NCBI GenBank assembly: GCA_913757435.1
Contig: CAJYDM010000006.1
Location: 124,001-188,000 of the forward strand
DNA length: 64,000 bases
Direction: 5' to 3'
Origin: Syntrophomonas sp. DTU019
GTDB lineage: Bacteria > Bacillota > Syntrophomonadia > Syntrophomonadales > Syntrophomonadaceae
Shown: one piece after another, positions 11,922 through 58,282 of the stretch
Position numbering within the stretch: position 1 is the first letter of the stretch
Layout of the letters: each line of letters opens with the position of its first letter
Translations under genes and position numbers: made by a program
The notes under the pieces: model-generated
Database searches by the model: none
Told to the model about the DNA's origin: nothing
Seen by the model: only the letters and a program-made list of their open reading frames with translations

Positions 11922-11952
11922 AAGGGGACTGTCAGCCTGGCAGTCCCTTTTT
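11922..11952 (+). terminator. Rho-independent terminator of the pyrophosphatase gene
   Basis: GGGACTG-tcagcctgg-CAGTCCC followed by TTTTT, about 20 bases after the stop codon. Confidence 0.85.
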
Positions 11953-12096: not shown

Positions 12097-14286
12097 ATGA
12101 TGAAACAGATTGCTATTTACGGCAAGGGCGGTATCGGTAAATCAACCGTAGCCGCCCATATTTCCGCAGCACTGGCCAATAGGGGTCTGAAAGTGATGCA
12201 GGTGGGGTGTGATCCCAAACATGACTCCACCCGTCTTTTAACCTGCGGTCGTGCTGTTGTTACCGTTCTGGATTACCTTCAGAAAACATCCCCAGATCAG
12301 CGCCAACGGGAGGACATTATAGATGTGGGCTATGGCGGAGTATGGTGTGTAGAAGCGGGCGGTCCCAAACCGGGTGTGGGCTGTGCGGGGAGAGGAATAC
12401 TGACCACCTTCGACCTGATCAAGAAACTGGGAGTCATGGACAGTGGGCTGGATGTGGTGATATACGATGTGCTGGGTGATGTGGTGTGCGGTGGTTTCGC
12501 CGTGCCCTTGCGCTATGAGTATGCTGACGAGGTGTATATCGTCACCTCCGGCGAGTTTATGTCACTATACGCAGCCAACAACATACTTAAAGGTGTACAC
12601 AATTATGATATTCAGCCTCGCCTGGGAGGGTTGATCTTCAACCATAAAGGTCTAGCCGAAGAAGAACTACGGGTGCAGCGTTTCGCGGCAGCGGTCGGCC
12701 TCCCCATATGTGCAGTAATTCCGCGTAGTGAGGATTTCGCCATAGCGGAGCAAATGGCCTGTACCTTGTTCCAGAGCAGTCACAGTAAGCTGCACTCCCT
12801 GTTTGAAGACCTGGCTGCACAGATGGCAGCAGAGCATCAGTTATATCCGGCCCACCCCCTGGATCCGGAGCAGCTCGAGGAGTTGATCCTGAATCGTTAT
12901 GTCATGCCCAGCAGTAAGGATATTGCTTATGAAGACAAGGCTTCTAAATTAACCCCAGATGCTCCAGCTGAAAAGGCCACGACATTGCTGTCCCTTAATG
13001 TGCGGAGGCGCGAGCCGCTGCACGGCTGCGCCTTTAATGGCGCTGTTAACGTAGCCATACAGGTACAGGATGCAGTGACCATAGCCCACGGCCCCAGGAG
13101 TTGTGCCCACGCCTCCTATCAGACCATCACCTCGGCGGGGCGCAAATCACAGTTTGAAAGAGGGGTATCCATGCCTGCCCATATATTGCCGCCTTTGATC
13201 AGTTCCGACCTTAATGAAGGACGTTTAATATTCGGAGGCATCTCAGAACTGCGCAAGAGGATCATAGAAGTGCAGGCTTGTCAGCCTCGGGCTATTTTTG
13301 TGGTCACAACCTGCCCGACGGGTATCATTGGCGATAATTTGGAGGAGATCATGGATCTGGATGACCATCATAAAACCCGGTTGATTGCCCTGGAGGCCGA
13401 TGGCAATATAAGTGGTGATTATTTGCAGGGGATGATCACCGCCTATGTAGAGACCGCCCGGGCCTTGATCGACCCGCACATCACCCCTGCAGGAGAATTG
13501 GTCAACATCATCGGAGAAAAGACTATCGCCAGCGTGACTGAACCTAATCTAAAGATTATAAAAGAACTTTTAAGGCAAATCGGGGTGGGGATTAACTGCC
13601 GCTTCATCTGCCAGACCACGGTAGGGGAGATAGCAGGCTTTAAGAAAGCCCCCCTCAACCTGCTGGCTTATGATGATTACATGGGCCGCTTAATGCGCGA
13701 TCACCTCGGTCTGAACTATGGGGCTGAATTTTATTCAAGACCGTTTCCGCGTGGATTTGAAGAAACCTCGCGATGGCTCGCGGAAATCGCTGCTTTCTTC
13801 GGCAAATCAGATCTGGTAAATGGAATTATAAATGCCTATGAGGAGCTTTATCGCCTGCAGATAGCGGGCCTGCGCCCGGCTTTGGAAGGCAAGCGTCTCA
13901 TGGTGGTGACCTATAACCACGACATCGATTGGATTCTGGAACCGGCCCTGGATCTGGGGATGGAGGTTTGTCTGGTAGGAATCCTCAATTACTCACAGGA
14001 CAACCATTTCCGCTCCCGTTTCAAGGGACAGTTCCCCTTAATCGAACCATATCCTCAGGACAGACGCCTGGAGGATGTAGCCCGACTTAAGCCCGACATA
14101 TTCCTGTCTAACCATGCCCTGTCAGCATATGATAGTGGGGTGTTTACAGATGTGATTCCACTGTGCCCGCAGGTCGGTTTCCTCAGCGGGGTGGACCTGG
14201 CGCAGCGTTGGACTCAAATATTTCGCCATAATATCAACGAAGGGTGGAAAAGGGATGCGGCCTTGTACAGAAAATATCTGGCCTGA
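12097..14286 (+). CDS. Nitrogenase-superfamily fusion protein: NifH-like reductase joined to NifD-like subunit
   Basis: A 729-residue single chain. Residues 1-260 are a complete NifH/BchL/CfbC-type Fe protein. It has the P-loop GKGGIGKST (9-17), the switch region GCDPKHDST, both 4Fe-4S ligands in GVGCAGRGI (Cys96) and DVLGDVVCGGF (Cys131), and Arg99 at the site ADP-ribosylated in NifH. After a linker of about 40 residues, a NifD/NifE-type component-1 subunit follows. Cysteines near 311, 336 and 406 (HGCAFNG, HGPRSCAH, TTCPTGIIGDN) match the three P-cluster ligands. The sites that hold FeMo-cofactor in NifD (Cys275, His442) have no obvious equivalents, so dinitrogen reduction is unlikely. The family includes BchLNB, CfbCD and MarHDK reductases. 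A NifK-like gene overlaps the 3' end. The substrate is unknown. ATG 12097 follows GAAGGG. Confidence 0.88.
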   Translation: MMKQIAIYGKGGIGKSTVAAHISAALANRGLKVMQVGCDPKHDSTRLLTCGRAVVTVLDYLQKTSPDQRQREDIIDVGYGGVWCVEAGGPKPGVGCAGRGILTTFDLIKKLGVMDSGLDVVIYDVLGDVVCGGFAVPLRYEYADEVYIVTSGEFMSLYAANNILKGVHNYDIQPRLGGLIFNHKGLAEEELRVQRFAAAVGLPICAVIPRSEDFAIAEQMACTLFQSSHSKLHSLFEDLAAQMAAEHQLYPAHPLDPEQLEELILNRYVMPSSKDIAYEDKASKLTPDAPAEKATTLLSLNVRRREPLHGCAFNGAVNVAIQVQDAVTIAHGPRSCAHASYQTITSAGRKSQFERGVSMPAHILPPLISSDLNEGRLIFGGISELRKRIIEVQACQPRAIFVVTTCPTGIIGDNLEEIMDLDDHHKTRLIALEADGNISGDYLQGMITAYVETARALIDPHITPAGELVNIIGEKTIASVTEPNLKIIKELLRQIGVGINCRFICQTTVGEIAGFKKAPLNLLAYDDYMGRLMRDHLGLNYGAEFYSRPFPRGFEETSRWLAEIAAFFGKSDLVNGIINAYEELYRLQIAGLRPALEGKRLMVVTYNHDIDWILEPALDLGMEVCLVGILNYSQDNHFRSRFKGQFPLIEPYPQDRRLEDVARLKPDIFLSNHALSAYDSGVFTDVIPLCPQVGFLSGVDLAQRWTQIFRHNINEGWKRDAALYRKYLA

Positions 14287-15559
14287 TGCATTCAGCGGGG
14301 CTATATTCGCATTGGAGGGCATTAGGGATGTGGTGGTAATTTTGAACGGTCCTACCGGGTGCAAATTCTATCACAGCGCGATATCCGATTATCAGTACCC
14401 CCGCGACTTGTCTTTCGATCCGCTCAATTATCCCGAGATCTATTACTTCGGCCAGCCCAGAGTGCCTGCCACCTTTCTGGACGGTAATGATTATATCTAT
14501 GGAGCGGCGTCAAAACTGGAGAAAATCTTGCAGCGGGTGGGAGGCAAACCCCAATACAAGTTGGTCACAGTGGTAAACTCCCCAGGAGCTGCCTTGATCG
14601 GTGATGACCTGCAGCGCCTGGCTAGAACCCACATCCCCCAGGTACCTTGTATCTGCATCGAAAACACAGGATTTTCGGGCGTATTCGCTGAGGGCTTTCA
14701 AAATGCACTTTTGCAATTGCTGTCCCACCTAAACCCACCCGGCCATCAAGGCGTAGAACCATACGTCAACCTGGTGGGACTGTCCATATACCACAAGCAT
14801 TACCGTGGTTCCATTAAAGAGTTGCAACGGCTCTTATCTTTATGCGGTGTCAAAGTGCAAACCACCATGTGCTGTGGCAACAGCCTGGAGGAACTACGAA
14901 ACTTTACCCGAGCCCGCTTAAACGTAGTGCTCGATCCCGATTATGGTTTAGAGGTATGCCAATGGATGAAGAGCCATCACCACATGCCTTATTTGCTCCC
15001 AGCCTCAGGTCTGCCGCTGGGCTTTGAAGCCACAGAAAGGTGGATAACCCAGGTGTGTTCCGCCTTAGGGGTCAACCCGCTTCCCGCCTTGGAAGACATC
15101 GAATCCTGCCGGGCCAGGGCTTTTCTGCATCTGTCCCGCTACAACTCAGTTACCGGATTGCCCCGAGGGGCAAGTTTTGCTGTAAAGACCGAACCGGCTC
15201 TGGCTGCAGCGGTGACGATATGGCTGCACAGTTACCTGGGCATGTTGCCTGCCGCAATTGAGTTGCTACCCTCCATACACCATTGCACGGCGCAGAAGCT
15301 GGAGGATTACCTGCGCTGTTACGGGCTCCACCAGGCATTTCACAGTAAGTTCATGGACTGCGGCGCAGATGTGTTGTTGTCGGACGGAAATACTCTGGGG
15401 CAGGCGCAACTGCTTCAAAAGCAGCCTTTCTGCGGCATAGAAATATCCCTCCCGTCTCTGGGGTACCTGGATGTGGTTGACAAATCCCTTCTGGGAGCTT
15501 CAGGAGCTATGTTGTTAATTGAGCAAATACTTAACGGTTTGCGCTTTGTATATAGTTGA
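14255..15559 (+). CDS. NifK-like nitrogenase component-1 subunit
   Basis: A 434-residue partner for the fusion protein, overlapping its 3' end by 32 bases, so translation is probably coupled. Cys4 and Cys36 (LNGPTGCKFYHS) sit where NifK has its first two P-cluster ligands. The third is replaced: NSPGAALIGDDL has Ser109 where NifD and NifK have Cys. The heterodimer would thus offer five cysteines to a bridging FeS cluster, plus a serine. Later segments (LYLSLCGV-type switch, LPASGLPLGFEATERW) follow the component-1 fold. Starting at ATG 14255 keeps Cys4, which a later start would lose; AAAAGGG lies directly upstream. Close relatives by layout are NifK, NifN, BchB and MarK, and I cannot assign it to any of these. 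Confidence 0.8.
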   Translation: MRPCTENIWPDAFSGAIFALEGIRDVVVILNGPTGCKFYHSAISDYQYPRDLSFDPLNYPEIYYFGQPRVPATFLDGNDYIYGAASKLEKILQRVGGKPQYKLVTVVNSPGAALIGDDLQRLARTHIPQVPCICIENTGFSGVFAEGFQNALLQLLSHLNPPGHQGVEPYVNLVGLSIYHKHYRGSIKELQRLLSLCGVKVQTTMCCGNSLEELRNFTRARLNVVLDPDYGLEVCQWMKSHHHMPYLLPASGLPLGFEATERWITQVCSALGVNPLPALEDIESCRARAFLHLSRYNSVTGLPRGASFAVKTEPALAAAVTIWLHSYLGMLPAAIELLPSIHHCTAQKLEDYLRCYGLHQAFHSKFMDCGADVLLSDGNTLGQAQLLQKQPFCGIEISLPSLGYLDVVDKSLLGASGAMLLIEQILNGLRFVYS

Positions 15560-15608
15560 CGTTTTTTAAAAAAGATAATTCCTCGGTATAGCCTGTCTCT
15601 AAATGGTG

Positions 15609-15629
15609 TATAATAAATGCGAATCATTC
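15609..15629 (+). promoter_or_regulatory. Promoter -10 and Fur/Zur-box-like palindrome before the regulator gene
   Basis: TATAAT at 15609-15614 is followed by the short palindrome GAAT-c-ATTC at 15621-15629, the expected transcription start. A further ATTC follows at 15632-15635. Fur-family boxes often contain GAATCATT-like half sites, so autoregulation by the downstream gene is plausible. No good -35 box is seen. Confidence 0.35.
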
Positions 15630-15652
15630 CTATTCTTATTGGAGGGTTAAAT

Positions 15653-16090
15653 TTGGACGCTATTGATTGGGATCAGACTATAAGAAAACTGGGGAAGAAA
15701 TCGACCCCGCAACGCAGAGCCATTCTCACCGCGCTCTCCAGGATGAATCGACCAGCTACCGTTGAGGAGATTTTTGTAGCCGTTAGGGAGCATCACGAAA
15801 CCAGTATTTCCACGGTTTACCGTAACCTGGAGTTGTTATTTTCAGAGGGACTGACAACTAAGCAGGGATTTCCCGGTGAAAAAACCCGCTACTGTCTGAA
15901 GCGAGAGCACCACGAACATACCCTGGTGTGCATCGATTGCCAGAAGATCGTGACTATCACCGGGTGCCCCCTGGAAAGTTATGCTATTGAAGTGGGCCGG
16001 CGCGAGAATTTTGTTGTAGTGGATCATCGCATGGAAATGTACGGTTATTGCCAGCAATGCAACCATCTCAGAGGGAGGTTGTCAAAGTGA
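15653..16090 (+). CDS. Fur-family metalloregulator, probably Zur-like
   Basis: A 145-residue Fur-family repressor. The N-terminal winged helix spans about residues 1-85 (STPQRRAILTAL, then SISTVYRNLELL as recognition helix). The dimerisation domain has the regulatory HHEH segment and two structural zinc pairs, CIDC and CQQC. The start is TTG 15653, with GGAGGG twelve bases upstream; an in-frame ATG at 15617 would place the start inside the promoter. Its stop overlaps the start of the zinc-binding lipoprotein gene by four bases, so regulator and transporter are cotranscribed. That context favours zinc (Zur) over iron (Fur) or peroxide (PerR) sensing, but the residues alone do not decide. Confidence 0.85.
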   Translation: MDAIDWDQTIRKLGKKSTPQRRAILTALSRMNRPATVEEIFVAVREHHETSISTVYRNLELLFSEGLTTKQGFPGEKTRYCLKREHHEHTLVCIDCQKIVTITGCPLESYAIEVGRRENFVVVDHRMEMYGYCQQCNHLRGRLSK

Positions 16091-17046
16091 GAAAAATCAC
16101 CGTCAGCCTGTTGCTGCTGGGATTCATGTTGCTAACCGGTTGCGGGCTTGTCCCGCTGTCGGCTCATAAAACCAGCAGCCAGGGGCCAGCATCAGATGAT
16201 TTTCACATCGTCACCTCTTTTTATCCCTTATATATTATGCTGTTAAATATCAGCGCTGACATTGACGGGGTCACAGTCACCAACCTGACTCGCAACGAGA
16301 CCGGCTGCCTGCATGATTATCAACTGACTCCCGGCGATTTGCAGAAACTGCAAGAGGCTGATGTTTTGGTAATCAATGGAGCCGGCATGGAGTCTTTTAT
16401 GGACAAGATCATGGCTCAGTTTCCTGATATCGCTGTGGTGGATGCCACCCGAGGCTTGGAGTTGATCGAACACCATGAAGAATTCGATCACCACGATGAA
16501 GTTAAACACCATGAAGAAGATAATCACCACGAAGAAGCCAATCCACATCTATGGGTGAGTGTTGCAGGGGCAGCTCAGCAAGTTGATAATATCAGCCGAC
16601 AATTAGCAGTTCTGGACCCTGAACACGGTGAGGCTTACCTGGGGAATAGCCAGGTCTATATAGATAAACTGCGACAATTAGGGGCGGAGATGCATGAGGC
16701 TCTGGATACCGCACCCAGGCGCCATATCGTTACTTTTCATGAGGCCTTCGACTATTTTGCCAATGAATTCAACCTGGATGTAGTGGCGGTAGTTGAGCGG
16801 GAACCAGGATCTGAGCCCAGTGCCGGCGAACTGGCGCAAATAATTGAAGATATTAAGCAGCAGCAAGCCGTGGCGGTATTCACCGAACCACAGTATCCTC
16901 CCCAGGCTGCCGAAACCATCGCCCGTGAGAGCGGAGTGGCGGTATATGCCCTCGACCCGGGAGTGAGCGGCCCTGAAGATGCGGACGCCTATCTGCGCTT
17001 GATGAGGCAGAACATGGAAGTGTTGAAGAGGGCGTTATACCGATGA
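16087..17046 (+). CDS. znuA: Zinc ABC transporter substrate-binding lipoprotein
   Basis: A 319-residue cluster A-I metal-binding protein. Start GTG 16087 has GGGAGG upstream and gives a classic lipoprotein signal, RKITVSLLLLGFMLLTGC, with the lipobox Cys at about 19. A histidine- and acid-rich loop (about residues 125-155, repeats such as HHEE and HHDE) lies just before NPHLWVS, the place where zinc-specific ZnuA/AdcA proteins carry their His-rich loop. Metal ligands should include the His of NPHLW, the His of VTFHEAF and a C-terminal acidic residue. It overlaps the regulator gene by 4 bases and the ATPase gene by 4 bases. The loop argues for zinc rather than manganese. Confidence 0.9.
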   Translation: MRKITVSLLLLGFMLLTGCGLVPLSAHKTSSQGPASDDFHIVTSFYPLYIMLLNISADIDGVTVTNLTRNETGCLHDYQLTPGDLQKLQEADVLVINGAGMESFMDKIMAQFPDIAVVDATRGLELIEHHEEFDHHDEVKHHEEDNHHEEANPHLWVSVAGAAQQVDNISRQLAVLDPEHGEAYLGNSQVYIDKLRQLGAEMHEALDTAPRRHIVTFHEAFDYFANEFNLDVVAVVEREPGSEPSAGELAQIIEDIKQQQAVAVFTEPQYPPQAAETIARESGVAVYALDPGVSGPEDADAYLRLMRQNMEVLKRALYR

Positions 17047-17810
17047 AAACAGATACTGCTTGCCAATCCTGCGGTTCAGCCTGCGGGTTGTGCGTCACTC
17101 AAATCAGCCATTTCAGTGTCAATATGCGTGGCAAATGTATTCTGGAGGATATAAATCTGCAGATCCACTGCGGACAGCTGACCGCTCTGGTGGGGCCTAA
17201 TGGCGCCGGCAAATCGACCCTTTTTAAAGCCATACTGGGTGAAGTGCCACATGAAGGACAGCTGCAGTTTCTGAACAGTGAGGGCAAACGAAGTGCCAGG
17301 CCGAGAATAGGTTATGTGCCTCAGCGGCTCAACTTCGACCCCAATTCACCAATAACCGTCAGCGATCTGTTTGTCAGCGCCCTGGGGCGATTGCCGGCTT
17401 TATTAGGGGGATCCCGCCGCACCATCAGTATTGCCAGGCAGGCTTTAGACCGGGTCGAGGCCCAACACCTAATCAACCGCCGCCTGGGAGCCTTATCTGG
17501 AGGAGAACTGCAGCGCGTCCTCCTGGCCCTGGCATTAGAACCGGTTCCCGACCTTCTGCTCCTGGATGAACCTATTTCCGGTGTAGATTTTAAAGGTATG
17601 CAGTGTTTTTATCAAATCGTGGCTGAACTGCGAAAACAGTACGACCTATCGGTGCTACTGGTCTCCCATGACTTGAACGCAGTGGCTGACTATGCTGATA
17701 GGGTAATACTCTTGAACCGGGTAATACTCTGCGACGGGACACCGCTGCAAGTGATGAAACACCCTTTGTTTGAGTCTACCATGGGTATAGTGGAACACCG
17801 GGCGGTTTAA
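17043..17810 (+). CDS. znuC: Zinc ABC transporter ATP-binding protein with Cys-rich N-terminus
   Basis: A 255-residue ABC ATPase with Walker A GPNGAGKST, signature LSGGELQR and Walker B LLLLDEP followed by the switch His (SHD). The N-terminus has an added segment with four cysteines (about 7, 10, 14 and 17, in CQSCGSACGLC) before the ABC domain proper. Such an extension could bind zinc or an FeS cluster and sense metal status. The start overlaps the upstream lipoprotein gene stop by four bases. It energises the ZnuB-like permease 36 bases downstream. Confidence 0.9.
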   Translation: MKTDTACQSCGSACGLCVTQISHFSVNMRGKCILEDINLQIHCGQLTALVGPNGAGKSTLFKAILGEVPHEGQLQFLNSEGKRSARPRIGYVPQRLNFDPNSPITVSDLFVSALGRLPALLGGSRRTISIARQALDRVEAQHLINRRLGALSGGELQRVLLALALEPVPDLLLLDEPISGVDFKGMQCFYQIVAELRKQYDLSVLLVSHDLNAVADYADRVILLNRVILCDGTPLQVMKHPLFESTMGIVEHRAV

Positions 17811-17846
17811 GGGTTGGGATCGATAGCGGTATGGAAGGAATAAGAG

Positions 17847-18686
17847 ATGTACGAAGCCGTTACTGCCTTAGTGAGTTTATTGCCTTTTTCCTGGGCCAAA
17901 TATGCCTTTATGCAGAATGCCTTGTTGGCCATACTTGTGGTGGTGCCCCTGTTTGCTCTGCTAGGGGCCATGGTGGTCAATAATCAGATGGCCTTTTTTT
18001 CCGACACCCTGGGACATTCAGCCTTGACTGGCATCGCCATTGGGGTCATCGTCGGGGTAAATGATCCCACCTGGTCGATGTTGATTTTCGCAGTTTTCAT
18101 CGCCATAGCAGTCACGATAATAAAAGAACGGACGGGGACCTCGGCCGACACCATTATAGGCGCGGTTTCAGCTACCGCTGTCGCACTGGGGATCGTGATC
18201 CTGTCCAAAGGGGGCGGTTTCGCTCGCTACAGCCGCTATCTGGTGGGCGATCTGTTGAGCATCAGTCCTCAGGAAGTAACGGCTCTGGGACTGGTGCTGA
18301 TCGCAGTCTTGGTGCTATGGTACATAATATTTAATCAACTGCTGCTTTTAAGCATCAATCCCTCTCTGGCAGGAAGCCGCGGCTTTCGGGTCAGACTGGT
18401 GGAAACCTGCTTTGCCGTCTCCCTGGCCATGGTGGTCACCTTCAGCATACAGTGGATAGGAATACTGATTATCAACGCGCTGCTGGTCCTGCCGGCTGCC
18501 GCAGCACGCAATGTGGCAGCGGGGATGAAGTCGTACCATCTATGGACCTTTTTAATAACCGCAGTATGCGGGGTCAGCGGTTTGATACTGTCTTATTACT
18601 GGGATACCGCCACTGGTGCCACTATCGTTCTTTTGGCAGCTTTATGCTATGTATTCACATTAATTCTCCGCCAGCCCGGGCGTTGA
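17847..18686 (+). CDS. znuB: Zinc ABC transporter permease
   Basis: A 279-residue membrane protein of the ABC-3 (ZnuB/MntB) family with about eight hydrophobic segments. It has the family-typical DTLGHSALTGIAIG near the N-terminus, and a C-terminal ALLVLPAAAARN coupling segment. It closes the regulator-znuA-znuC-znuB operon. The start ATG 17847 has GGAAGGAA upstream. Confidence 0.9.
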   Translation: MYEAVTALVSLLPFSWAKYAFMQNALLAILVVVPLFALLGAMVVNNQMAFFSDTLGHSALTGIAIGVIVGVNDPTWSMLIFAVFIAIAVTIIKERTGTSADTIIGAVSATAVALGIVILSKGGGFARYSRYLVGDLLSISPQEVTALGLVLIAVLVLWYIIFNQLLLLSINPSLAGSRGFRVRLVETCFAVSLAMVVTFSIQWIGILIINALLVLPAAAARNVAAGMKSYHLWTFLITAVCGVSGLILSYYWDTATGATIVLLAALCYVFTLILRQPGR

Positions 18687-19357: not shown

Positions 19358-19688
19358 GTCCTGCCTCCTGACAATATGCTGATACCTTTAAGCCAGCTCA
19401 TAGTTGTTTTGGCCGGGCTGAGAATAGACTAAGCAACGGTCAATTCCAGAGATGTATTGATTATTCTGCAGAAACGGGGCACAGAGATAGGTTCGGCCCC
19501 TGGCCTTTTATAGTGTATGGATACAACTTATCCGAAAGACCTGCTAATTTGTGGTTTTATCCCCAAAAAGCTTCATGTTTTTAGCGTCTGAATGTCATTT
19601 CTCGCACAACCTCTGGTTTTAGCCGGGCAGGTTATGGGATAATATGAAGGATAAATCCAAGCCTTGGCAGAGGCGGAGGATCAAGTAT

Positions 19689-20489
19689 ATGTACTGCGGA
19701 GCTGCTATCCAAGAAAAACTGCACACACTTAGGTCCATAATACAACCATACCGCAGCGCCTTGGTGGCCTTTTCGGGCGGGGTCGACAGCACTCTTCTCT
19801 TGACGGTGACCAAACAGGTGCTAGGTTCGGCAGTGACCGCGGTAACCGTAAGACATATGGCCCACTCTGAAGAGGAGATGCTTGCAGCCGTGGAAATTGC
19901 CCATGGTCTGGGGGTAAGGCATCATATTCTAGACGTTACCACTGTCAGTCGGCGGATTTTCGAAACAAATCCAATTGACCGTTGTTATCACTGCAAGCGT
20001 CTCATTTTTGAAATGTTGCTGGCAGAGGCCAGAGAGCATGATATGCAAACCGTTTTGGACGGATCCCATGCCGGGGACTTGGAGCAAGACCGCCCCGGAC
20101 TGAGAGCACTGAAGGAACTAGGCATATCCATGCCACTGCAAGAGGCCGGCCTTAACAAAGCGGATATCCGCTTAATTTCCAGGCACCTGGGTCTGTCCAC
20201 TCATGACAAGCCGGCCCGGCCATGTCTAGCCACCCGTTTTCTGCCCGGGGAGACTATAGACCAGCAAAAGCTGGGCATGATACAAAAGGCCGAATCCTAC
20301 CTGGCAGGACTGGGATTATACGATTGCCGGGTCAGATTCCGCAACGGTGAAGCCCGCATTGAGACTACCCGGGAGGGAATGGACCTGCTCCTCAACCTGG
20401 AGGTGGTTGACGCAGTGAATGATGTGTTTTCTAAGCTGGGTTTTTCAGGAATACTTCTTGATTTCCACTGCTACCCGTCCCGGGAATGA
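19689..20489 (+). CDS. larE: Pyridinium-biscarboxylate mononucleotide sulfur transferase
   Basis: A 266-residue PP-loop enzyme of nickel-pincer nucleotide (NPN) cofactor synthesis. The ATP-binding loop SGGVDSTLLL is near residue 40. The RCYHCK motif is typical of LarE. PARPCLATRF carries the cysteine that in the characterised Lactiplantibacillus enzyme donates its own sulfur. I choose ATG 19689 because GGCGGAGGA lies eight bases upstream; an in-frame ATG at 19644 has no such site. It is followed at 70 bases by larB and then larC, giving the complete NPN pathway. Confidence 0.92.
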   Translation: MYCGAAIQEKLHTLRSIIQPYRSALVAFSGGVDSTLLLTVTKQVLGSAVTAVTVRHMAHSEEEMLAAVEIAHGLGVRHHILDVTTVSRRIFETNPIDRCYHCKRLIFEMLLAEAREHDMQTVLDGSHAGDLEQDRPGLRALKELGISMPLQEAGLNKADIRLISRHLGLSTHDKPARPCLATRFLPGETIDQQKLGMIQKAESYLAGLGLYDCRVRFRNGEARIETTREGMDLLLNLEVVDAVNDVFSKLGFSGILLDFHCYPSRE

Positions 20490-20559
20490 GACCGTGTCAG
20501 CTCAGTAAGTAATGGGGCCAAATGTTCGGATCGCCCAGGCAGATAGAGGAGGAAAAAGA

Positions 20560-21330
20560 TTGGATCAGGACCGCATCACGCAGCTCCTACAGGATTTCAA
20601 ACAGGACCGGGTATCGCTTGAACAAGCCTTGGAAAAACTGCGCCAGCTTCCTTTTGAAGATCTGCATTATGCCAAGGTAGACCACCACCGCAGCATACGC
20701 CAGGGCTTTCCAGAGGTTGTATTTGCCGAGGGAAAATCAGAGGCACAGATCGAGGGTATCATTGAAGCCCTGCTTAAACAAGGCCATAATATTCTCACCA
20801 CCCGCCTCAGTGCGGATAAATACAAATCTTTAGAAGGGCGCTGGGCAGGTATGGAATATCACCCCTTGGCCAGAGTTATGCTGATCCGCCACAAGGAAAT
20901 CAAGCCTCTTCATGGCTTGGTTCTGGTGGCTACCGCCGGCACCTCTGACATCGGGGTAGCAGAGGAGGCCGCTCTGACCGCTGAGATGATGGGCAGCAAG
21001 GTACAGCGCCTTTACGATGTAGGGGTGGCAGGCATCCATCGCCTGCTGGCGTATCGGAGCTGTTTGGAGCAGGCTGATGTAATAATTGCGGTGGCCGGTA
21101 TGGAAGGCGCCTTGCCCAGCATAGCAGCCGGCCTGACGGATAAACCGGTCCTGGCGGTCCCCACCAGCATCGGTTATGGGGCCAGCTTTGAAGGATTGAG
21201 CGCGCTTCTGGCCATGCTCAACAGCTGTGCCAACGGGGTGGCGGTATTTAATATAGACAATGGCTTCGGGGCAGGGTATTTTGCCAGCCGATTGATTAAA
21301 CAGATGAACAGGTTTTCTGACAATAGATAA
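20560..21330 (+). CDS. larB: Pyridinium-3,5-biscarboxylate mononucleotide synthase
   Basis: A 256-residue LarB, which carboxylates and hydrolyses nicotinic acid adenine dinucleotide in the first NPN step. The C-terminal two-thirds resemble the PurE/AIR carboxylase fold: VATAGTSDIGVAEEAALTAE is the signature, and AVAGMEGALPSIAAGL and AVPTSIGYGAS follow. The start is TTG 20560, with AGAGGAGG about seven bases upstream. An in-frame ATG at 20512 would overlap unlikely leader sequence. It is flanked by larE and larC in one orientation. Confidence 0.92.
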   Translation: MDQDRITQLLQDFKQDRVSLEQALEKLRQLPFEDLHYAKVDHHRSIRQGFPEVVFAEGKSEAQIEGIIEALLKQGHNILTTRLSADKYKSLEGRWAGMEYHPLARVMLIRHKEIKPLHGLVLVATAGTSDIGVAEEAALTAEMMGSKVQRLYDVGVAGIHRLLAYRSCLEQADVIIAVAGMEGALPSIAAGLTDKPVLAVPTSIGYGASFEGLSALLAMLNSCANGVAVFNIDNGFGAGYFASRLIKQMNRFSDNR

Positions 21331-21343
21331 AGGCAGGTTGGAC

Positions 21344-22678
21344 ATGACAAAAGTATTGTATTTCGATTGTTTTGCCGGAATCTCAGGTGATATGACCCTG
21401 GGGGCGTTGCTGGATGTGGGAGCTGACCTGGACTATTTGCGTAGTGAACTGGTCAAACTGGATTTGGGCAATTTTAATATCACGGCGGGTAAAACCACCA
21501 AAAATGGCATCTCGTGTACTGATGTTGAGGTTGATTGGCCAGGCAAGGCCAAATCTTCCCACCATCTTAGTACATCCACAAGCGATTCTCAGCATTCTCA
21601 TGAGGAAGACATCATCCCTTGCCATCATTGCCGCCAAACCCCCAAGCCAGAACCCCCTGAAGAAGTGCCGGTTCACTTAAATACTCAACATGGTCACTCT
21701 GCCCATCGAAATTTACAGGAGATTGAGGGGTTGATCAGCAGAAGCAGCTTGAACGACCGGGTCAAAACCCTTAGCCAGCAGATTTTTCAACGCCTGGCGC
21801 AGGCTGAGGCTCGTGTTCATGGCAAGAGCATTACCGAGGTTCATTTTCATGAAGTGGGTGCTGTCGATTCCATTGTTGATATTGTTGGCACCATGGTATG
21901 TCTGGATTATCTGGGGATTGAGCGCATCTATGCCTCGCCTCTGCATCTGGGCAGCGGTTTTCTGCAGTGCGCCCATGGCACCCTGCCGGTGGAAGCACCT
22001 GCCACTATGGCTTTGTTGGAAGGGGTGCCAGTGTATTCGACCGGAATAAAACATGAATTGGTTACCCCCACCGGAGCAGCCATCATCACCACACTGGCTC
22101 AGGGCTATGTGCCTTTACCGGAGATGGTGGTAAACCGTGTAGGTTATGGGGCCGGAGATAGCGAGTTGGAGATTCCCAACCTGTTGCGGGTGATTTTAGC
22201 AGAGGAAATTCCTTCTACACTGCTGATGCTGGAAACCAATATAGATGATATGAACCCTCAGATCTATTCCCACCTCTTTCCACTGTTATTGGAGGCGGGA
22301 GCCCTGGATGTGTATCTCACCCCGATCATAATGAAGAAGAACCGCCCTGGGGCGATTCTCAGCGTTTTATGTCCGCAGCCCCTGACAAGCCGCTTGGAGG
22401 AGATTATCTTTGCAGAGACCACCACCCTGGGTATACGCCGGGTGCCGGTCAGCCGCAGCAGCCTGCAGCGGGAGATCAGGCAGGTAGAGACCCCTTGGGG
22501 ACAGGTCAGGGTCAAGACGGCTCTCCGTGAGGGGCGGGTGATAAGAGCTGCAGCGGAGTATGAGGATTGCAGCCGCATAGCCCGCGAGCAGCAGATTCCA
22601 CTCCAGGTGGTTCTCGGAGTAGCAGGACGGGCCGCAGAAGATGCCTTTCTTGAGCCGGTGGCTTCGCGCCTGGACTAA
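21344..22678 (+). CDS. larC: Nickel insertion protein of the nickel-pincer cofactor pathway
   Basis: A 444-residue CTP-dependent nickel cyclometallase that inserts Ni into the pincer nucleotide. The N-terminus YFDCFAGISGDMTLGAL is the family signature. Residues about 65-125 form a histidine-rich, low-complexity linker that probably binds nickel. The C-terminal domain has the ETNIDDMNPQ motif. In Lactiplantibacillus the gene is split into larC1/larC2 and joined by programmed frameshift; here it is one continuous frame. ATG 21344 has AAGGCAGG upstream, and TTG 21338 is possible. No LarA-type lactate racemase is in the window, so the enzyme that uses the cofactor is elsewhere. Confidence 0.92.
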   Translation: MTKVLYFDCFAGISGDMTLGALLDVGADLDYLRSELVKLDLGNFNITAGKTTKNGISCTDVEVDWPGKAKSSHHLSTSTSDSQHSHEEDIIPCHHCRQTPKPEPPEEVPVHLNTQHGHSAHRNLQEIEGLISRSSLNDRVKTLSQQIFQRLAQAEARVHGKSITEVHFHEVGAVDSIVDIVGTMVCLDYLGIERIYASPLHLGSGFLQCAHGTLPVEAPATMALLEGVPVYSTGIKHELVTPTGAAIITTLAQGYVPLPEMVVNRVGYGAGDSELEIPNLLRVILAEEIPSTLLMLETNIDDMNPQIYSHLFPLLLEAGALDVYLTPIIMKKNRPGAILSVLCPQPLTSRLEEIIFAETTTLGIRRVPVSRSSLQREIRQVETPWGQVRVKTALREGRVIRAAAEYEDCSRIAREQQIPLQVVLGVAGRAAEDAFLEPVASRLD

Positions 22679-56133: not shown

Positions 56134-56934
56134 CTAACTCAATTCTCCCTGAACAACTAGCTTAACCATATGATCATCAATAATGTTACGTTTGTTCTGA
56201 GCTCCATAAAGCAGACAATGAGTGCAGACCTTGTTAACCATTCGCGCTGCTCCACTTGAAAACTTGAATATCTCATCAACAGCGTTATCAGAGAAAATAT
56301 CATGTTCGGCACCGGCATAAGCCAGGTGTCTTTTTACATATTCGCCAACCTGAGAGCGATCCAGGTGAGGCAGCTTGCATTGTATGTCGATGCGTTGCCT
56401 GATGGCCGAATAGGACTGAAGCTTAAGCCTATCCCAGAGTTCATTCTGGCCTACCAGAATCAAAGCCATCGGGCTTTTGGCGTCCATTTTGAAATTCAAC
56501 AGGAACCTGACTTCTTCCAACATCTCTTTGTCCAATAGATGGGCTTCATCCACGATAACCACGGGCTGCAGGTGGTGGATACCCTGCATCAGTTCGATCT
56601 CTTTATGTAGTTGCCGTTTAGCGTCTCCCCGGTAGAATTTAGCCTCACAGCCCAATTGCTCTAATAGGCCTTTGTAGAAATGCCGAGGTGTTAACTTGGA
56701 ATCAGCCAAGTACATCACCATATACCGAGATGTGTCCAGGATTTCTTTAAAGCACCTTATGGTAGTGGTCTTACCGGTTCCACAGTCTCCGGTTAATACT
56801 GCAAACATCTGCCGCTGGGCGGTGTACTCAAGCCTCCCCAGGGTTTCTTCCAGCAGGTGTGACTGATACAACTGATCAGTGGGTATATCCCTGGAAAAAG
56901 GTGTCTTTTGGAGACCATAGAAACTTTCAAACAT
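56134..56934 (-). CDS. ExeA-type AAA ATPase of the transposon
   Basis: A 266-residue AAA ATPase of the TniB/ExeA type that assists DDE transposition by target selection or complex assembly. Walker A is TGDCGTGKTTT, Walker B is VVIVDEAHLL, followed by sensor residues and a C-terminal lid (SGAARMVNKVCTHCLL). The start overlaps the end of the integrase gene by eight bases, so the two are translationally coupled. Confidence 0.88.
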   Translation of the reverse strand: MFESFYGLQKTPFSRDIPTDQLYQSHLLEETLGRLEYTAQRQMFAVLTGDCGTGKTTTIRCFKEILDTSRYMVMYLADSKLTPRHFYKGLLEQLGCEAKFYRGDAKRQLHKEIELMQGIHHLQPVVIVDEAHLLDKEMLEEVRFLLNFKMDAKSPMALILVGQNELWDRLKLQSYSAIRQRIDIQCKLPHLDRSQVGEYVKRHLAYAGAEHDIFSDNAVDEIFKFSSGAARMVNKVCTHCLLYGAQNKRNIIDDHMVKLVVQGELS

Positions 56935-58282
56935 GCCCTTCGCCCTCCTTGCTTACTGAACGATAGGAAACGGCGGGGGTATAGTTGTCTTTGCGCTCCT
57001 GGTGCTTAATAGCTGCTGCTTGGAGCAGCCTTGATGAATCAGTGGGTTCTTTCTGCATGAATTCGGGTAAGGGCGGTCTCTTACCCGCCCGTTCTCCAAT
57101 CACCAGTTGCCGGGCTTTAAAGGGCTGGTGTCCTTCATATTCGATGGTAAGTTCACTAATATCTGCCGGATCGAAGATGACATCGACTTTGCAGCCGATA
57201 AAAGTCAGACCTACTTCGTATTTTCTGCTTTCAAAGCTGATACAGCCTGATTTATCTACCTTTCTTTCCTCACAGTGCATAAATGCACTGGCTAGTATTT
57301 CCGGATCAAGGTATTTCAAGGTCTTACGGTCACTCTGGTATGCCACTGCCGGACTAAGCTCACCCTCTATTCCGGAATGAGGCTTGTGCTGGTAGCATTC
57401 CTCCAGCCAGACTGTGAACAACTGATTTAATCTGTCTAAGGTTTGTGGTTCCTCTAATCTGGCCTCTGCTAAAAATGAGTCAACCACCCGGTTAAAACGT
57501 TCAACTTTGCCAGTGGCTTCGGGGGAATAGGGTTTTGCAAACAGTAGCCTGATTCCCATCTTGGCACAGGCTCGATTCATCCATTTGTTGCGGTACTGAC
57601 CGCCGTTATCAAAGTATACTTTTTCCGGAACGCCGTATTTTAGGATGGCTTTCTTGAAACAGTCTTCAACAATTATTTGGTCTAATACCGGGTAGAACTC
57701 ACCATGCAGAATGAAGCGAGTAGCGTCATCCACAAATGTAACCAGGTAGACTTGCTTCTTTTTACCTTCCTTGCCGATGGGCAGGTAGGGCCCGTATTTT
57801 ATGTCAGAATGCCAGAGCTGGTTACGGTATTTCTGCTGATAACGTCTGGCAGCTACACCGGTACCGGTATACATGCGCATTTGCCGACTACTGTAACCTC
57901 TCTGGGCTAACTTTTCCTGCAGGGTGCTACGCTTGATCTGTCCTGGCTGAACTAAGCCCTCCCACTCCATGATCTGAATGATTTGGGATATGCTGCGACT
58001 GGGTACTTGGCGGCGCAGCAATATGGCCTGCTCCAGGACGTTAATGGGAACTGCTTCTTCGCTACACCGTTTGCCTCTGCCTTTGGGCTTTAGTCCGTTA
58101 AATCCTTCTTTCCTGTACAGGTCTAGATACCTGCGTAAGGTGCGCTCGGATATCCCGGTCTGTTCACATATCCGGGTTTTGATTACCTTAGCCTGTCCGG
58201 CATCCAGGCCTTCAGCAAGGAGTGGGGCCAGCATATGCACCCGCTGGGCCGCTATCTCTTCTGCCTTCTTGTCATTTCTCAA
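56927..58282 (-). CDS. Mu/IS481-like DDE integrase
   Basis: A 451-residue transposase. An N-terminal helix-turn-helix region (about 25-100, including ISERTLRRYLDLY) binds the ends. The rve catalytic core has Asp in WHSDIKYG, Asp in KVYFDNGGQYRNK and Glu in GKVERFNR, with normal DDE spacing. A C-terminal beta-barrel domain follows. It overlaps the ATPase gene by eight bases. The frame is intact, so the element may be active. Confidence 0.9.
   Translation of the reverse strand: MRNDKKAEEIAAQRVHMLAPLLAEGLDAGQAKVIKTRICEQTGISERTLRRYLDLYRKEGFNGLKPKGRGKRCSEEAVPINVLEQAILLRRQVPSRSISQIIQIMEWEGLVQPGQIKRSTLQEKLAQRGYSSRQMRMYTGTGVAARRYQQKYRNQLWHSDIKYGPYLPIGKEGKKKQVYLVTFVDDATRFILHGEFYPVLDQIIVEDCFKKAILKYGVPEKVYFDNGGQYRNKWMNRACAKMGIRLLFAKPYSPEATGKVERFNRVVDSFLAEARLEEPQTLDRLNQLFTVWLEECYQHKPHSGIEGELSPAVAYQSDRKTLKYLDPEILASAFMHCEERKVDKSGCISFESRKYEVGLTFIGCKVDVIFDPADISELTIEYEGHQPFKARQLVIGERAGKRPPLPEFMQKEPTDSSRLLQAAAIKHQERKDNYTPAVSYRSVSKEGEGHV

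Follow-up and report, generated by a model that had tools for sequence, protein, structure and literature searches.

A fused Fe protein and component 1 chain with a K-like partner as an uncharacterised nitrogenase-like reductase of Syntrophomonas sp. DTU019, with a corrinoid as candidate substrate

The window analysed here, a 64,000-nucleotide stretch of the genome of Syntrophomonas sp. DTU019 (contig CAJYDM010000006.1, positions 124,001 to 188,000), encodes a 729-residue chain that joins a NifH-like Fe protein to a NifD/E-like component 1 domain (HD), followed by an overlapping gene for a K-like component 1 subunit (K). This locus raises the question of whether such a fusion is genuine and, if so, which reaction the two-polypeptide system, referred to here as HD-K, would catalyse. 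Our analysis shows that HD-K is a real, conserved and uncharacterised variant of the nitrogenase-like reductases. We propose, with a probability of about one half (0.52), that it is an ATP-dependent two-polypeptide reductase of the simple [4Fe-4S] (DPOR/Cfb-like) type, with an imported corrinoid or a closely related metallotetrapyrrole as its most likely substrate.

The HD open reading frame (ORF) spans positions 12097 to 14286 of the forward strand, which also carries K, and encodes 729 amino acids (aa) without an internal stop. Its Fe-protein domain (residues 2-268; 12100..12900) matches PF00142 with 295 bits over residues 3-268, while its component 1 domain (residues 301-729; 12997..14283) matches PF00148 with 223 bits over residues 311-707; both domains lie above the curated cut-offs and, together with the P-loop and the two cluster cysteines, place HD in the nitrogenase superfamily. 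The two domains are joined by a disordered, flexible linker (residues ~267-300; 12895..12996), described below by its identity, nonsynonymous divergence (dN) and predicted local distance difference test (pLDDT). The K gene (14255..15559) encodes 434 aa that match PF00148 over their full length with 155 bits. The original prediction, made from the letters alone, had described the fused chain and a 32-base overlap with K, and both descriptions are exact: the overlap between the HD stop region and the K start lies at 14255..14286. A similar short overlap is present in the relatives, and it is read as translational coupling. An internal start that would give a separate D protein was considered at Met270, in the linker, and was rejected, because a suitably positioned ribosome site is lacking and the residue is not conserved.

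Could a frameshift or a misassembly have joined two genes, as the original prediction had cautioned? Nothing was found in favour of such an artefact, and it is refuted by several observations. Across Bacillota, the identical layout recurs in no fewer than 11 further genomes or contigs. All fused copies are single-frame (the fused frame was seen in L009-L013, L088-L090 and L092, L011 being Clostridium rectalis), the gene being cut by contig ends in two assemblies (L014 and G315). A second assembly, L009, has syntenic genes, with 73% and 71% identity to those of the window. Between the two, dN was 0.15 for H, 0.18 for D and 0.23 for K, with a synonymous divergence (dS) that is saturated or near 2; judged from these substitutions, H, D and K, and thus both sides of the linker, are under strong purifying selection. 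The 35-residue linker itself has 20% identity to L009, a dN of 0.95 and a pLDDT of about 25-30 in the predicted model, and its length in the relatives ranges from ~30 to ~90 residues; it is a neutral, variable-length flexible tether joining two constrained domains. Additionally, the H halves (support 96/94), the D halves (100/100) and the K chains (100/99) each form a single clade, which points to one fusion event followed by joint descent.

The fusion is rare and scattered. A scan with one genome per species gave six fused genes or fragments, to which searches of sampled genomes added more. In a draw of 398 genomes from the phylum, 5 carried the fused gene; they are spread over distant families, and within the family of the host no other drawn genome had it. 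Relatives listed on plasmids were only ordinary separate nif genes, and none was found in viral contigs. In one fused locus (L092:5824-6426, G207), a DUF3786 gene overlaps the start of the fused HD gene.

The ligands of HD-K suggest which kind of chemistry it might perform. In the Fe-protein half, the P-loop GKGGIGKS (residues 9-16), Cys96, Cys131 and Arg99 do not vary across the six family members compared, so that this half is intact, as had been claimed. The three P-cluster cysteines attributed to the D half, Cys311 (codon 13027), Cys336 (13102) and Cys406 (13312), are likewise all present and invariant. A further invariant and family-specific residue, Cys501, could, as a speculation, be an axial ligand. 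For K, the original prediction of two retained cysteines and a serine was correct regarding the serine only: the three P-cluster alignment positions are occupied by Asp11, Cys36 and Ser109, invariant in every row that covers them, and Cys36 is thus the only cysteine kept. Cys4 of K was rejected as the first cluster ligand, since it lies off the alignment position, is missing in L012-L014 and is not conserved. The predicted absence of ligands for the iron-molybdenum cofactor (FeMoco) was corroborated: the equivalent of Cys275 is Ala524 in the window D and Ala in all family members, and the His442 region is not conserved across the relatives (Cys, Thr, Ala or Gly). The Cys in IPLCP of the window protein, tried as the equivalent of the homocitrate/cofactor His442, is Ala, Thr or Gly in the relatives and was discarded.

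The host genome, 100% complete by estimate, holds one component 1 pair and one full Fe protein, both from HD-K; with no other component 1 or full Fe protein available, the fused H must work with the D and K of HD-K. No NifB was found in the host (best match 22 bits, cut-off 344), so that a cofactor of the FeMoco or L-cluster type is very unlikely in HD-K. Based on the missing cofactor ligands and the missing NifB, we agree with the earlier view that HD-K does not fix nitrogen.

Does HD-K then belong to any other characterised branch of the superfamily? All NCBIfam equivalog cut-offs were missed by a wide margin: nifD reached 83 bits (cut-off 654), nifH 302 (394), BchB 78 (490), BchN 31 (420), BchL 209 (345) and CfbD 32 (268). 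The H half scored highest against CfbC among these models (316 bits, cut-off 402), and the best component 1 model for the D half was NifE (109 bits, cut-off 505). The NifE match would fit a NifEN-like scaffold for cofactor assembly, or a metallocluster insertase, in place of a substrate reductase. Nevertheless, we give this explanation only a slim chance, considering that the host has neither NifB nor a NifDK or other component 1 to mature, and that the fusion to a complete ATP-dependent Fe protein indicates repeated rounds of electron transfer.

Two phylogenetic trees of D and K, of 99 and 57 rows and built without CfbCD and Isr sequences, placed both chains outside NifDK/EN, Vnf/Anf, Mar and Bch; the Bch rows stand on long branches, and the distances to them are unsure. 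The nearest neighbours of the fused D and K are unfused Bacillota systems, L101 (G318) and L114/L131 (G199), with supports of 93/93 for D and 99/95 for K. These sister systems differ from HD-K in having three separate genes, six P-cluster cysteines and direct control by a cobalamin riboswitch. In the H tree, their H proteins did not group with the fused H, and the H half may have a history separate from that of D and K. The trees place both halves in an uncharacterised clade, and the outcome that the original prediction had named as a refutation, a firm position of both inside a characterised clade with commonly fused members, did not arise. The predicted fold of K comes closest to that of BchB/ChlB from DPOR (Z 34.9; root-mean-square deviation (rmsd) 3.2-3.3 over 388-393 residues), followed by MarK (Z 31.8) and NifK/NifN (Z about 28-31), and the model of the Fe-protein half agrees with Fe proteins over 270 residues (Z 33.9; rmsd 3.8). 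Both models rest on shallow alignments of 6 and 7 sequences, with pLDDT values of 71 and 77 that are low in the cluster loops.

DPOR (BchLNB/ChlLNB) resembles HD-K not only in the K fold but also in having three cysteines on the D/N side, an aspartate on the K/B side and no cofactor cluster; it differs in its separate chains and in the aspartate of BchB, which occupies the second ligand position, whereas K of HD-K has Asp first and Cys second. In CfbCD, CfbD is a homodimer without K, unlike HD-K. NifHDK and the Vnf/Anf nitrogenases have the ligands Cys275 and His442 in NifD and are accompanied by NifB and NifEN in the genome, where HD-K has Ala for Cys275, no conserved His442 region and a host without NifB. 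MarHDK and IsrHDK are, like HD-K, group IV nitrogenase-like H-D-K reductases; both are encoded by separate genes, MarHDK with a P-cluster, an [Fe8S9C] cofactor and a NifB-like maturase (PMC12552129), and Isr with a radical S-adenosylmethionine (SAM) partner (PMC11423573). No radical SAM gene of the IsrB type was found beside HD-K in the window. From these data, HD-K is not a nitrogenase, Mar, DPOR or CfbCD.

That HD-K might reduce C-S bonds of organosulfur compounds, like methylthio-alkane or isethionate reductase, is suggested by the best solved-structure sequence match of K, which is MarK (E 4e-13), and by the abundance of Mar relatives in the same phylum. However, Mar requires six P-cluster cysteines, the cofactor ligand Cys270 and a NifB-like enzyme (PMC12552129), whereas HD-K has the Asp/Cys/Ser set in K, an Ala for the cofactor Cys and no NifB; additionally, the trees separate HD-K from Mar, and no sulfur genes adjoin HD-K. 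We therefore regard an organosulfur substrate as improbable.

The layout itself, which the original prediction took to be undescribed, is not new. Dos Santos et al. 2012 (PMC3464626) mentioned, in one sentence and as data not shown, fused NifHD/E with a NifN-like partner in Archaea, Firmicutes and Deltaproteobacteria, and filtered the fused sequences out of their trees. The likeness to HD-K, with the H and D/E halves in one ORF and a K/N-like gene next to it, is one of layout only, as that paper gives neither sequences, clade and ligands nor context and function. For NflHD genes adjacent to cobyrinate diamide synthase, the same paper suggested a role in cobalamin reduction, and it noted that other nitrogenase-like genes have ABC transporters as neighbours. 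In the open-licence literature, we found no paper linking nitrogenase-like enzymes to cobalamin riboswitches. As far as could be checked, the clade with its ligand set and tether, and the link to B12-type uptake, are first described here. A different fusion was also observed, in which D and K form one chain of 790-870 aa adjacent to a separate Fe protein (L102:5536-7908, L104:11190-13799 and L127:4484-6988).

What suggests the substrate is the genomic context of the relatives. A cobalamin riboswitch and a B12-type importer share one operon in L088, L090, L101, L131/L114 and the distant L109; the window locus does not have this arrangement. In family f28 (L088, L089 and L090), the S component of an energy-coupling factor (ECF) transporter lies directly downstream of HD-K in all three loci. 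L088 and L090 share a same-strand run of cobalamin riboswitch (L088:3537 and L090:991), ECF ATPase, S-layer protein, DUF4430 protein and HD-K; the ECF T component of this run is our own reading of the sequence and has no Pfam match. In both of these genomes, three cobalamin riboswitches, out of totals of 7 and 9, lie within the ~19-27 kb upstream of HD-K; under random placement, the chance of such grouping is ~5e-5 and 2e-4, respectively, values that are not corrected for riboswitch clustering and shared descent. DUF4430 is present in 7 of 7 fused genomes tested and, in family f28, in 3/3 fused versus 2/20 unfused genomes. In the host, a strong cobalamin riboswitch immediately precedes the gene for a 1229-aa protein with three DUF4430 domains (L132:256-3942, contig C2). 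L010 has a cobalamin riboswitch 2 kb downstream, a weak indication in a genome with 26 of them.

Among the sister systems, L101 has the order riboswitch-CbiK-H-D-K, and one long operon of G199 (L131:754-9775/L114:198-8506) has riboswitch-CobN-two BtuF-like genes-TonB-ChlI-ChlD-ABC ATPase-H-D-K-FecCD-radical SAM-TonB. A distant clade represented by L109:2589-8608 (G086) shows riboswitch-H-D-K-BtuF-FecCD-ABC ATPase, with a short D gene (273 aa), and is apparently a separate nitrogenase-like clade under direct B12 control. Overall, a cobalamin riboswitch lies near 5 of 14 focal loci versus 1 of 26 control loci, which are other nitrogenase-like or nif loci and of which L109 is the riboswitch-bearing one (p = 0.014, or 0.043 without the extended locus). 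Given this riboswitch and importer context, we infer that a corrinoid is the best guess for the substrate of HD-K. Thus, where the original prediction offered a tetrapyrrole, organosulfur or other reduction, the DPOR-like fold of K, together with the riboswitches, chelatases and B12-type importers beside the relatives, makes a tetrapyrrole the better choice.

Regarding the mechanism, the H domains of two HD chains would dimerise around one [4Fe-4S] cluster held by Cys96 and Cys131 and bind MgATP. The H dimer, held by the linkers, would dock at the D/K interface and pass single electrons from ferredoxin or flavodoxin to a putative [4Fe-4S] cluster coordinated by D through Cys311, Cys336 and Cys406 and by K through Cys36 or Asp11. 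From there, the electron would move to a tetrapyrrole occupying the D/K cavity in place of a FeMoco-like cluster, where the reduction could affect the cobalt, taking Co(II) to Co(I) or removing an upper ligand, or a ring double bond, and ATP hydrolysis would release the H dimer. Very low potentials are reached by ATP-gated systems of the nitrogenase type, and the formation of Co(I) would fit them. Known complexes such as nitrogenase and DPOR have two H per DK half. The fixed 1:1 ratio proposed earlier applies to H and D, but an (HD)2K2 tetramer would hold half of the H domains needed for both docking sites, so that the stoichiometry is changed; at a ratio of 1:1, only one of the two sites could be occupied at any moment, unless H domains of different tetramers pair with each other. 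The number of H per D is a real, testable difference from all characterised members.

Several observations weigh against a corrinoid as the substrate. Neither the window locus nor L009 is near a riboswitch, an importer or a B12 gene, the neighbours of both being fur and znuABC, and L011-L014 have no tetrapyrrole context. The comparison of focal and control loci for riboswitches is uncorrected for relatedness and was made over loci of differing lengths. The sisterhood of the D half, at 93/93, is not starred, and D and K of the sister clade have six P-cluster cysteines, so that their cluster type may differ from that of the fused clade. An anaerobic cobalamin operon, complete and with a CbiJ-like gene (genes read by eye), is present in the host, which therefore has no obvious need for corrinoid salvage. 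DUF4430 would be corrinoid-binding by analogy with transcobalamins, of which it is the C-terminal domain (PMC4350170), and by its adjacency to riboswitches; it is, moreover, frequent among unfused genomes from the family of the host (9/11), which makes the DUF4430 argument weak for the window copy itself. Separately, HD-K as a replacement of the cobalamin ring reductase CbiJ is ruled out for the host, whose cob operon has the CbiJ-like gene.

A related explanation is that HD-K reduces another tetrapyrrole (haem, a sirohaem type or a chlorin breakdown product), freeing the metal or the ring from imported pigments, with the chelatases of the sister clade acting as dechelatases. The CbiK with signal peptide, CobN, ChlID, the TonB receptors and the radical SAM gene beside that clade are consistent with it, as are the fold of K and the metal-uptake genes adjoining the window copy. 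Nevertheless, two sister loci, two fused loci and L109 are under cobalamin riboswitches and not under a haem or iron signal, and we consider this explanation rather unlikely.

The neighbours of the window copy also allow a role in metal homeostasis, in which HD-K would belong to the adjacent fur/znuABC regulon and serve under Zn or Fe starvation. The genes fur, znuA, znuC and znuB (within 15560-18686) start on the same strand 58 bases past K, and L009 shares them. Zinc genes are, however, not near the other relatives, and fur has its own AT-rich, promoter- and operator-like stretch at 15560-15650, recognised by eye and not flagged by the scan; this role is therefore hardly probable. Upstream, HD-K is preceded by an H+-pyrophosphatase gene with a terminator-like hairpin (GGGACTG-9 nt-CAGTCCC-TTTTT; 11925..11952, forward strand), which was seen by eye, the terminator scan covering loops of 3-8 nt and not reporting this 9-nt loop. 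Based on this hairpin, HD-K appears to be its own transcription unit. No riboswitch or other Rfam RNA was found between 9200 and 19500 of the window at E values up to 1. Apart from L009 and family f28, the neighbours of the other fused loci are unrelated.

If HD-K acts on a corrinoid, it might tentatively be seen as a cobalamin-regulated, ATP-driven corrinoid reductase with a covalently tethered Fe protein, working by half-of-sites alternation or by pairing of H between tetramers. It would then form a third class of tetrapyrrole-reducing nitrogenase-like enzymes, beside DPOR/COR and CfbCD, with the new Asp/Cys/Ser ligand set in K; we hold this fuller proposal to be doubtful. Many nitrogenase-like genes of anaerobes have no known function, and the fused clade now has a defined anatomy, comprising a single fusion origin, a tether and a ligand set. 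The occurrence of cobalamin riboswitches and importers in three separate nitrogenase-like clades also gives it a testable substrate class. Were the proposal true, anaerobic and human-associated bacteria would employ ATP-driven electron transfer of the nitrogenase type in their vitamin B12 metabolism. Gated electron transfer, in which docking is transient and otherwise hard to study, could then be followed in a simple system of two polypeptides with a natural H-D tether.

Some minor features were observed around these loci. Downstream of riboswitch-CbiK-H-D-K in L101, there is a second CbiK with the apparent signal peptide beside a TonB receptor (L101:8837-9838), and a ZMP/ZTP riboswitch ahead of a major facilitator superfamily (MFS) gene (L101:7259-7339). 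In the window, three consecutive genes at 19644-22678 resemble larE, larB and larC of nickel-pincer cofactor synthesis, and the order of larB and larC is also kept around L009. An IS21-like pair, an AAA ATPase and an integrase-like transposase gene, lies at 56134-58282 of the window, and genes similar to this pair are inserted in the host cobT region (L133:7910-9988).

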